Part shown: piece after piece, positions 6,120 through 15,269 of the stretch
Numbering within the stretch: the first letter of the stretch is position 1
Layout: every line of letters begins with the position of its first letter
From: Kangiella aquimarina DSM 16071
GTDB taxonomy: Bacteria > Pseudomonadota > Gammaproteobacteria > Enterobacterales > Kangiellaceae
NCBI RefSeq assembly: GCF_000374105.1
Contig: NZ_KB893650.1
Coordinates: 862,862-926,861 of the forward strand
DNA: 64,000 bases
Direction of reading: 5' to 3'
Position numbers and translations under genes: made by a program
Notes under the pieces: model-generated
Database searches by the model: none
What the model saw: only the letters and a program-made list of their open reading frames with translations
What the model was told of the DNA's origin: nothing

Positions 6120-6440
6120 GCTACATTCCTTAAATTATTTTTTCGCCCCTCGGCGAATTACTTTCTCTTGAGTGGCCAAGAGAAAGTAATCAAAGAGAAG
6201 GCCACCCCGTGATTGAGGTTTCGCTAAGCTCAACACCTCTCGTACTCACCAATCCATTTAACGCACCGTAAAATACGTTCCATCCTTGGACCGAATTTTA
6301 CTATTCAAAACTTCCTGTTTTGAATTGCTATGGTCTGGTTCATACTCGACTCAATCAAAGGGGGTATTGGCGCAAGAGGTATAGGCAGGCAGCAAAGAAT
6401 GGATTCAGAGTATGCCGTCTATAGTTTTTGTAGGGTACTC
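6120..6440. repeat. Intergenic structured repeat, no gene
   Basis: This part of the 500-bp gap between aspartate kinase and nfuA contains no convincing coding sequence. It contains a perfect 14-bp stem, ATTACTTTCTCTTG (6157-6170) with CAAGAGAAAGTAAT (6177-6190), loop AGTGGC, and a second perfect hairpin ATTCAAAAC-TTCCT-GTTTTGAAT (6303-6325). From memory, intergenic repeats with a similar AAGAGAAAGTAA stem occur in many gammaproteobacterial genomes. Only one copy is visible here, so its repeat status is inferred. Confidence 0.5.
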
Positions 6441-13243: not shown

Positions 13244-13717
13244 TTGAAAATTAAGATTTTTGAAATCAATGACTTAGAACAGCTTGTGCCTGCCTTTGAC
13301 AGTTATCGTCAACGCTACAAACAGCCCTCTGAGCCACAGAAAATTGAGCAGTTTTTGCGACTAATGCTGGAGCAGCAGACATCGACCATGTTTTTATCTT
13401 ATGAGGGCGACGAGCTGACCGGTTTCATACAACTTTACCCTTCTTACTCAAGTATTGGCCTGGCCCCAATCTGGACCCTGAATGACTTCTACGTGTTTGG
13501 CGGTACCGGGCGTAAGCAAACAGCCGAGGCTTTGCTGAATGCAGCCAAAGATTTGTGTAAGGAAACGGATGCGATTCGTATTGAGGTGACCACCCGTAAA
13601 GAGAACCATCGTTTGCACAAGATTTACCGCGACTATGGTTTTGAAAAGGACTATAAGTACGATTACTACTTCCTGCGTGTGAATGAGCAGGACATCGCCT
13701 CTAAGATGCTCAAATAA
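13244..13717 (+). CDS. GNAT-family N-acetyltransferase
   Basis: 157 residues. The start is TTG at 13244, supported by TAAGGA seven bases upstream; no better ATG exists near the N-terminus. The fold is recognisable from the acetyl-CoA binding segment NDFYVFGGTGRKQTAEALL (~residues 85-103, an R-x-x-G/A-like pyrophosphate loop) and the C-terminal HRLHKIYRDYGFEKDYKYDYYF, where the tyrosine after the last helix is typical. The acceptor substrate cannot be inferred. It stands alone, followed by the SAM-II leader of the next gene. Confidence 0.82.
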   Translation: MKIKIFEINDLEQLVPAFDSYRQRYKQPSEPQKIEQFLRLMLEQQTSTMFLSYEGDELTGFIQLYPSYSSIGLAPIWTLNDFYVFGGTGRKQTAEALLNAAKDLCKETDAIRIEVTTRKENHRLHKIYRDYGFEKDYKYDYYFLRVNEQDIASKMLK

Positions 13718-13783
13718 CAAATTGTTATAACGATTATACGTTTAGCCGTTTGGACTTCCATGGCAACTCGGGTATAGTTGCCA

Positions 13784-13836
13784 CCTGCGCTGATTTGTAC
13801 CGCTTGCGGGCGCACTAAAAATTCCGCTAAAAAGTG
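13784..13836 (+). promoter_or_regulatory. SAM-II riboswitch aptamer (SAM_alpha type)
   Basis: The segment matches the SAM-II pseudoknot consensus remembered from metA/metX leaders. It has TGCGC (13786-13790) then TGATTTG, CCG, CTTGCGG, GCGCA (13810-13814), ACTAAAAA and the diagnostic CGCTAAAAAG (13825-13834). P1 is TGCGC/GCGCA, and the pseudoknot P2 can form from GCGG (13806-13809) with CCGC (13824-13827). It lies ~50 bases before the start codon of an NhaC-family transporter, the family that includes the proposed methionine transporter MetT. SAM binding should therefore reduce methionine uptake. The aptamer call is strong; the mechanism is inferred. Confidence 0.85.
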
Positions 13837-13886
13837 ACTCTGAAACTTATCGTTTCGGCCGCAAGCTATTTTTTTGAAGGTTTTCT

Positions 13887-15269
13887 ATGTCCAAAAAGCT
13901 TGCTACTTCTCCTGGCCTATCATCAGTTGGCACTTCCGAATCAATCACTGAAACACGCCACTCAAAGGTTTCCAGCCATAACCCTGCTCACTGGCTAGCA
14001 TTATTGCCACTGGTATTATTTTTGGTGCTATTTCTTGGCTCTGGCATTTATTACACGACGCTTGGAGTTGAGTACGCTTTTTACCAGTTACCCGCACCGG
14101 TAGCAGTATTGCCAGCGATTGCAGTTGCGCTGTTTCTGGCTAAAGGAACCTTTGAGAGCAGAATCGCGATCCTATTAAAAGGTATTGGTGACAGTAATAT
14201 TGTCGCCATGTGTTTGATATATCTGCTGGCAGGCGCTTTTGCGGCACTAACTGGTGTTATCGGGGCGATAGATGCGGTGGTCAACTTTGGACTTTACTGG
14301 ATTCCCCCCGGATTTATTCTGCCAGGTTTATTTGTCATAGCGGCAGTGGTGTCATTTGCTATGGGCACTTCGATGGGAACACTGGCAGCGCTAGCTCCAA
14401 TTGGATTTGGCCTATCGCAAACTGCGGGGCTTGAGCCTGCGATTGTGGCGGGCATCTTGCTAAGTGGCGCCATGTTTGGCGATAACCTGTCTGTCATTTC
14501 AGACACTTCGATTGCTGCAACGCGCACACAAGGCGCGACAGTTGGTGAAAAATTACGACAGAATGCTCGCTGGGCCATTCCCGCTGCTATCATTACTATT
14601 AGCTCATTTTCCTTAATTCCAACCGAGCCCTCACAAGCAGAGGTTGCTGATTACCAGCTCTATAAAGTGATTCCTTATTTGGCTATTGTGATTCTGGCAT
14701 TAACTGGATTGAGTGTTTTCATTATTTTGCCGGCCGGCATCATCGTTAGTATCGGCATAGGGCTTATCAGTGGAAGCTTTACAGTTGACAATTCAGTGGC
14801 ACAGACCATTTATCAAGGCTTCAGCAATATGCAGGAAATATTTTTGCTGTCACTGCTGATTGGTGGGCTTGGAGCCTTAATTGAAAAGCAGGGTGGCTTG
14901 CAATGGCTGGTCAATAAAATCAGCCAGCTGTTTGCCGCGAGCCAGTCTAAACTGAGGGCGCAGCTGGCGGTATTAAGTACCGCTGCAGTTACTAATCTGG
15001 CAGTGGCCAATAATACAGTTAGTATCATTCTGACCGGAAAAGTGACTCAATCGTTAGCCAACCAGGGGAATATTGAGCCAATGCGAAGCGCAAGTCTGGT
15101 CGATATCGGCGCCTGTTCTACTCAGGGAATATTACCTTATGGGGCACAGTGTCTATTGCTTGGGGCCAGTTTTGGCATATCACCGTTGGAACCGGTGCAA
15201 TATGTGTGGTATTTGCCGATTTTATTAGCCGTAGTGTTTAGTAGTCTGTTGTTTAGAAAAGGTGCTTAG
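13887..15269 (+). CDS. metT: NhaC-family transporter, probable methionine transporter (MetT-like)
   Basis: 460 residues with about 11-12 membrane segments starting near residue 33; the first ~30 residues are polar and cytoplasmic. Family hallmarks are the glycine/alanine-rich FAMGTSMGTLAALAPIGFGL (~155-174) and SGAMFGDNLSVISDTSIAA (~190-208). NhaC-type proteins are annotated as Na+/H+ antiporters. However, the upstream SAM-II aptamer argues for the MetT branch, proposed by comparative genomics to import methionine. The ribosome site GAAGG precedes the ATG. Its end overlaps by 4 bp the end of the convergent MATE gene. Family assignment is firm; the methionine substrate is inference from regulation. 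Confidence 0.8.
   Translation: MSKKLATSPGLSSVGTSESITETRHSKVSSHNPAHWLALLPLVLFLVLFLGSGIYYTTLGVEYAFYQLPAPVAVLPAIAVALFLAKGTFESRIAILLKGIGDSNIVAMCLIYLLAGAFAALTGVIGAIDAVVNFGLYWIPPGFILPGLFVIAAVVSFAMGTSMGTLAALAPIGFGLSQTAGLEPAIVAGILLSGAMFGDNLSVISDTSIAATRTQGATVGEKLRQNARWAIPAAIITISSFSLIPTEPSQAEVADYQLYKVIPYLAIVILALTGLSVFIILPAGIIVSIGIGLISGSFTVDNSVAQTIYQGFSNMQEIFLLSLLIGGLGALIEKQGGLQWLVNKISQLFAASQSKLRAQLAVLSTAAVTNLAVANNTVSIILTGKVTQSLANQGNIEPMRSASLVDIGACSTQGILPYGAQCLLLGASFGISPLEPVQYVWYLPILLAVVFSSLLFRKGA

Follow-up and report, generated by a model that had tools for sequence, protein, structure and literature searches.

Two kinds of described systems stand closest to the locus reported here. The class II S-adenosylmethionine (SAM) riboswitches (SAM-II) of the Sargasso Sea and of S. 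meliloti metA and metZ, as presented in PMC9373788, combine a pseudoknot of helices P1 and P2 with the core UGAUUUG..CUUGC..GCUAAA ahead of a methionine-related gene. The metT genes of Shewanella and Vibrio, which encode NhaC-family transporters, carry tandem met-boxes at the promoter, and according to PMC3228920 MetJ represses the reporters Vc.metT and Sh.metT (ratios 0.08 and 0.21, respectively). The locus analysed here, in a 64,000-nucleotide stretch of the genome of the marine bacterium Kangiella aquimarina DSM 16071 (contig NZ_KB893650.1; hereafter the window), resembles both kinds in the leader of a single gene, a metT candidate encoding an NhaC-like transporter. With a probability of roughly 70%, we read this leader of a metT-type importer as a two-layer SAM gate, in which a MetJ operator and a SAM-II riboswitch would act on the same gene.

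The SAM-II aptamer and its conservation in Kangiella

The original prediction had recognised a SAM-II core in the leader and a pseudoknot that it could form, and both claims were borne out. The blocks it quoted are present (TGATTTG at 13791-13797, CTTGCGG at 13803-13809 and CGCTAAAAAG at 13825-13834), a cmscan search covering the entire window with 4227 Rfam families returned RF00521 (SAM_alpha) above its gathering score (Table 1), and the inner and outer pairings of P2 can both be drawn, the outer one with covariation. Across the 2.68 Mb genome, in which 150 of the 486 first-look candidates were scored, the match in front of the metT candidate was the sole one to RF00521 at E ≤ 1. The conserved SAM-II nucleotides (GAUUU, UUGC and GCUAAA) have a role in SAM contact, and their columns are invariant in our alignments A1, A2 and A4. 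The leader thus combines a score over the gathering threshold, the P1 helix, the P2 pseudoknot and the conserved nucleotides. Since the score in the window is marginal, the case for the aptamer is carried by its relatives.

An orthologue of the metT candidate was found in 11 of the 20 genomes of the genus (61-100% protein identity), the other nine being without the gene, and the SAM-II core lies upstream of all 11. At E ≤ 1, RF00521 detects six of these leaders, G195, G000 and G200 above the cut-off and G184, G073 and G161 below it. The five leaders unmatched by Rfam (L114-L118) contain an extra hairpin of 14-46 nt between the 3' strands of P1 and P2, a position that is unpaired in the RF00521 consensus. 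A hairpin is likewise inserted in the aptamers of the Pseudoalteromonas-type metT leaders L038 and L246 (also L256), and it separates the same two strands in the aptamer of genome G985. The Rfam model therefore misses SAM-II copies bearing this insertion, five of 11 here. A covariance model of our own (R1), built from 16 sequences that included eight of the 11 Kangiella metT leaders, scored all 11 at 57-78 bits; the three leaders outside the training set reached 76.8 (G195), 57.5 (G135) and 67.6 bits (G148), the last two being hairpin cases.

Covariation was measured in two alignments. A4 holds 16 chosen gammaproteobacterial SAM-II leaders (eight of the 11 Kangiella metT leaders, L007, L011, L002 and five of metZ or metK type) and was not aligned to the P1/P2 structure; A1 is restricted to metT and has 12 rows, 11 of them distinct. 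For P1 and P2 together, 91.1% of the cells in A4 are paired and double changes occur at eight of 12 pairs; none of 500 shuffles reached either value, and slid versions of the structure had at most 60.9% of cells paired. The corresponding figure in A1 is 95.5%, with a covariation score reached by 0/500 shuffles and a count of double-change pairs reached by 36/500. P1 is near-constant in A1, where double changes affect two of the three outer P2 pairs. Inner P2 is mostly invariant and shows no double change in either alignment. A chance match was ruled out by this conservation and covariation. On the strength of covariance model, conservation and covariation, we consider the leader almost certainly a SAM-II aptamer, whose RNA would be expected to bind SAM.

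Predicted MetJ operator and probable identity of the transporter

Upstream of the aptamer we found a predicted MetJ operator overlapping the -35 region of a sigma-70-like promoter. Boxes were scored against AGACGTCT, which we take to be the met-box consensus; the 17/24 matches to three tandem copies were reached by only three of 2324 overlapping 110-nt segments of the window, the operator site among them. The predicted transcription start, at about 13785, falls at P1, the first helix of the aptamer. The span originally proposed for the element, 13784-13886, runs from approximately this start to the base before the ATG at 13887; it includes neither the upstream MetJ boxes nor the pairing between 13802-13809 and 13859-13866 described below. 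The earlier reading missed the boxes over the promoter, and two SAM sensors appear to be stacked on one gene.

MetJ is encoded in 15 of the 20 genomes of the genus and in ten of the 11 with metT. Of these ten, eight have two-box scores of 12-13/16, with L117 at 11 and L118 at 10. Genome G073, a single case, keeps metT and the aptamer and has no MetJ; its promoter scores 7/16, which is background level. In Kangiella, both layers thus occur in ten genomes and the riboswitch alone in one. A member of the MetJ regulon is marked by promoter met-boxes in tandem and by a metJ gene in the genome; the window locus shows both, and MetJ is predicted to bind there. Outside the genus, SAM-II and met-box-like arrays precede metT in three genomes, G078, G985 and that of Pseudoalteromonas sp. 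T1lg88. Each of the three encodes MetJ, in a check in which ten of ten genomes did.

The closest named relative of the 460-aa transporter is a Kangiella protein (81% identity). Although it matches the Na_H_antiporter family of Pfam (PF03553), its score of 78.9 bits against TIGR00931, the NCBIfam NhaC equivalog, lies far below the curated cut-off of 370, so that it does not qualify as NhaC. In a tree of 108 proteins, from which L073, L089, L091 and L103 of the 80 relatives were left out for incomplete frames and in which long branches were flagged, 19 NhaC-like paralogues of the genus split off from the metT candidate (SH-aLRT 99), and 20 relatives without MetJ boxes form a group (support 98) outside which the candidate lies. 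The candidate otherwise stands among relatives from Shewanella, Vibrionaceae, Idiomarina, Pseudoalteromonas and others, with unsupported branching order. Within 330 nt upstream, three tandem met-boxes at ≥ 16/24 occur in 51 of the 80 relatives, and at ≥ 17/24 in 43. The candidate therefore stands apart from other NhaC-like proteins and has relatives bearing MetJ boxes, as expected of a MetT. MetQ (PF03180) was not found in any of the 20 genomes of the genus, MetQ being the only methionine importer searched for, and no relative with a solved structure was found at E ≤ 0.01.

In Bergeyella zoohelcum, a SAM-I/IV riboswitch, that is, another class of SAM sensor, occupies the same place directly before a distant NhaC-like relative (L084:5815-5911). 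This was the sole SAM riboswitch over gathering among the 11 of 80 relatives scanned; SAM-I in front of Gram-positive relatives was dropped as an argument for MetT, as none of seven Gram-positive loci had it. The preference of the original prediction for MetT over a Na+/H+ antiporter agrees with the low TIGR00931 score, the tree, the MetJ boxes and the Bergeyella riboswitch. The phylogenetic comparison it proposed is answered in part: the candidate is separated from the 19 paralogues and the 20 box-less relatives, in a tree that contains no experimentally proven antiporter or MetT. We conclude that the gene is probably metT, a methionine importer, rather than an NhaC antiporter, with methionine suggested as the substrate by the regulation. 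PMC3228920 lists Kangiella as being without a methionine-specific transporter, the species in its figure being K. koreensis. Since nine of the 20 genomes of the genus lack the gene, that statement and our finding can both hold, and the metT assignment fills this gap in the account of Kangiella methionine transport.

Table 1. Features of the metT candidate locus (positions in the window; A1 and A4 are the alignments described in the text).
Feature	Position	Strand	Basis
MetJ operator (predicted), three tandem 8-bp met-boxes ATACGTTT AGCCGTTT GGACTTCC	13736..13759	+	17/24 matches; overlaps -35 region
Sigma-70-like promoter, TGGACT-16-TATAGT	13751..13778	+	consensus scan only, 9/12 matches; 1 found vs 0.5 expected
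SAM-II (SAM_alpha, RF00521) match	13777..13852	+	36.8 bits vs gathering 36, E 1.1e-4
Aptamer helix P1, TGCGC 13786-13790 with GCGCA 13810-13814	13786..13814	+	double changes at 5/5 pairs in A4; near-constant in metT-only set
Conserved core UGAUUUG ... CUUGC ... GCUAAAAAG	13791..13834	+	GATTT, TTGC, GCTAAA columns invariant in A4
Pseudoknot P2, outer, UAC 13798-13800 with GUG 13834-13836	13798..13836	+	double changes at 2/3 pairs (A1), 3/3 (A4)
Pseudoknot P2, inner, GCGG 13806-13809 with CCGC 13824-13827	within 13798..13836	+	no double change
Anti-aptamer helix proposed for the SAM-free state, 13802-13809 GCUUGCGG with 13859-13866 CCGCAAGC	13802..13866	+	pairing in 11 orthologues
Small hairpin (GAAAC/GUUUC) in the stretch from the aptamer to the anti-aptamer strand	13842..13856	+	predicted fold
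Proposed sequestor, 13861-13867 GCAAGCU with 13897-13903 AGCUUGC of codons 4-6, Shine-Dalgarno and AUG lying in between	13861..13903	+	predicted fold after aptamer
Shine-Dalgarno-like GAAGG, 6 nt before ATG 13887	13876..13880	+	sequence
metT candidate, NhaC-like transporter, 460 aa	13887..15269	+	Pfam PF03553 69.3 bits; TIGR00931 78.9 bits, below 370 cut-off; tree

Proposed expression platform and two-layer control

At high SAM, MetJ with SAM as co-repressor would block transcription by occupying the tandem met-boxes that lie over the -35 region. Transcripts escaping MetJ would start at about 13785 and fold immediately into the SAM-II pseudoknot aptamer. With SAM bound, GCUUGCGG would be held in P2 and at the P1 junction, leaving CCGCAAGC free to pair in part with codons 4-6, so that a hairpin closes around the Shine-Dalgarno sequence and the AUG and translation is switched off. 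In the absence of SAM, GCUUGCGG would pair with CCGCAAGC, the start hairpin would open and the importer would be made. Computation shows the aptamer and the covariation of its helices, the met-boxes, a metJ gene and that the alternative pairings exist, whereas the binding of SAM and of MetJ, methionine transport and the direction of switching are inferred.

Over ten columns in the 11 orthologue leaders, 97.3% of the cells of the anti-aptamer helix are paired, a value reached by 2/500 shuffles, and in nine of 11 leaders the pairing has a leader-shuffle p ≤ 0.01. The unconstrained fold of the full leader contains this helix in seven of 11. For the sequestor, the shuffle p is 0.035 in the window leader and < 0.05 in eight of the 11. 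The sequestor pairing changes with lineage, being GCAAGCU/AGCUUGC in L111-L113, UUCUGUC/GACAGAA in L114-L120 and, in the fold of L121, a U-run against GGAAAGAAUG; by eye, all 11 post-aptamer folds place the Shine-Dalgarno sequence in a hairpin reaching the start codon, with sequences differing between lineages. The accessibility of the start region speaks weakly in favour of the platform. A start-sequestering platform, as proposed here, is thus moderately supported. In the metT leaders L038 and L246, a possible alternative hairpin AGCUAAAA..UUUUGGCU follows the aptamer; it was seen by eye in both leaders, and the predicted fold contains it for L246 alone.

Several observations weigh against the two-layer gate. 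The window leader exceeds the Rfam cut-off by 0.8 bits only, just three of the 11 orthologue leaders pass it, three score 29.5-32.2 bits and five are unmatched at E ≤ 1; the Pseudoalteromonas locus L038 is also below the RF00521 gathering score, though R1 finds it at 45.2 bits. The Kangiella orthologues share kinship, so the tests on them are not independent. The met-boxes are weak in L117 (11/16) and L118 (10/16), scores that 21 and 168 of the 2324 background segments reach. The anti-aptamer pairing is borderline in the window leader (p 0.051) and not significant in L116 (0.236), where two of its pairs are broken, and its sole double change concerns one pair in one row (L121, G-C to A-U; 46/500 shuffles reach this). 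For the sequestor, three leaders fall short of significance, L121 (0.614), L119 (0.083) and L114 (0.058). Start-region accessibility is lower in the off state in nine of 11 leaders, mostly slightly, and in the window leader it goes from 0.55 to 0.57; moreover, in four of 11 the off hairpin is already preferred by the unconstrained fold.

A genuine riboswitch might act through transcription termination instead of blocking translation, and a run of seven U at 13869-13875, directly after the anti-aptamer strand in the window, would suit such a mechanism. However, a terminator scan of 13650-14000 found no intrinsic terminator in the leader; the U-run is missing from L114-L120, and a GCUUGCGG/CCGCAAGC stem followed by the U-run would form without SAM, which is the wrong sign for an importer. 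We therefore regard termination as improbable. About equally improbable is a role for the protein in Na+/H+ antiport, or in carrying another solute (e.g. a methylated sulfur compound), that SAM control serves: it belongs to the Pfam Na_H_antiporter family and its methionine assignment rests on regulation, with no solved relative at E ≤ 0.01, yet this is opposed by the NhaC equivalog score, the separation from the NhaC-like paralogues of the genus, the MetJ boxes before 51/80 relatives, the SAM-I/IV riboswitch of Bergeyella and the lack of MetQ in the 20 genomes. Finally, the aptamer could be a SAM-II that has decayed and lost its switching, leaving control to MetJ alone, which seems to suffice elsewhere, as R1 finds no SAM-II in 78 of the 80 relatives' loci and met-boxes stand in 51. 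The low Rfam scores would fit such decay; the invariant core, the covariation of P1 and outer P2 and the retention of the aptamer in G073 without MetJ do not, and we hold it to be very unlikely.

Compared with these alternatives, the two-layer SAM gate remains our preferred reading. Its fuller form is a reasonably probable account: one gene under two stacked SAM sensors, namely MetJ and a SAM-II whose translational platform is new, with persistence of the riboswitch in G073 without MetJ. Two sensors for one ligand on one gene raise the question of redundancy versus a wider range versus different time scales, and since the riboswitch is kept in the MetJ-less G073, Kangiella provides a natural experiment on what each layer contributes.

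SAM-II beyond metT and comparison with known systems

RF00521 was matched at E ≤ 0.001 in 118 of 369 sampled genomes of the class (31 over gathering), a sample that may include former betaproteobacteria, and in 58 of 299 sampled genomes of the phylum (50 over gathering). SAM-II is itself common in this class. By eye, 21 of 29 class loci (L166-L194) lie before a metZ-type PLP enzyme and three before metK; L167, L177, L185, L186 and L191 have another gene, no clear gene or no core. In these loci CUUUAGC, the complement of the aptamer GCUAAAG, was often seen by eye in a following terminator-like stem. The original prediction had described SAM-II as best known from alphaproteobacterial methionine synthesis genes, and PMC4239095 has SAM_alpha found only in Rhizobiales and Rhodobacterales; gammaproteobacteria are already named as having SAM-II in PMC2704228. 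The latter paper and the 118/369 genomes ruled out the occurrence in gammaproteobacteria as a novelty.

Among 394 genomes of the order, R1 at ≥ 40 bits found the 11 Kangiella metT leaders, three Kangiella AlkB-like genes, seven short open reading frames (ORFs) from a single genus, and the metT genes of G078 and G985. The AlkB-like cases (L002, L004 and L005, from G073, G007 and G032, all without MetJ) have a second SAM-II, with the aptamer near 1507-1569, ahead of a gene for a membrane protein of the fatty-acid-desaturase/AlkB-like kind (83.7 bits to PF00487 in L004, the only one tested) and, judged by eye, of a ferredoxin-like gene. We know of no link of such an enzyme to SAM. The seven genomes of the other genus (g10; L236, L240-L245), each with a MetJ gene, carry MetJ-box-like arrays and SAM-II before a lone ORF of 58-67 aa whose ends are conserved (MFEA.QKET ... 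D..RP) and whose middle is highly variable; no Pfam match was found for the two tested, and the ORF may encode a small protein or the precursor of a peptide. Elsewhere in the window, a TwoAYGGAY RNA (RF01731) was found at 6256-6330 on the reverse strand (47.7 bits, gathering 43).

Unlike the metT genes of Shewanella and Vibrio, those of Kangiella and Pseudoalteromonas T1lg88 have SAM-II upstream, the only such cases by R1 among the 80 relatives' loci; L105, one of three hits in a pattern scan of these loci, was set aside as unsupported by R1. In contrast to the RF00521 systems covered by PMC9373788, the Kangiella target is a transporter, and metT thus adds a transport gene to the SAM-II targets. 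The hairpin between the 3' strands of P1 and P2, in five orthologues, L038 and G985, sets these aptamers apart from the Rfam consensus. According to the same paper the Sargasso Sea riboswitch sequesters its Shine-Dalgarno sequence in the pseudoknot, whereas that of Kangiella lies about 40 nt after the aptamer and the proposed platform would capture the 5' strand of P2. In acting on a start codon well downstream, Kangiella would resemble S. meliloti metA; there, as PMC9373788 describes it, the controlled Shine-Dalgarno sequence is part of the riboswitch, with the start AUG2 74 nt away, and S. meliloti has no MetJ homologue, unlike the Kangiella metT genomes with MetJ. A gene with repressor boxes followed by a riboswitch is also known in btuB, which PMC3228920 took to be the sole gene in its study with met-boxes plus a riboswitch (cobalamin). 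Kangiella metT would be the second kind of gene with this combination, and while the btuB sensors read different ligands, those of metT would both read SAM. As far as the open-access literature searched shows, four features are new: a transporter gene as target, the combination with MetJ, the hairpin inserted into the aptamer and the proposed start-sequestering platform.
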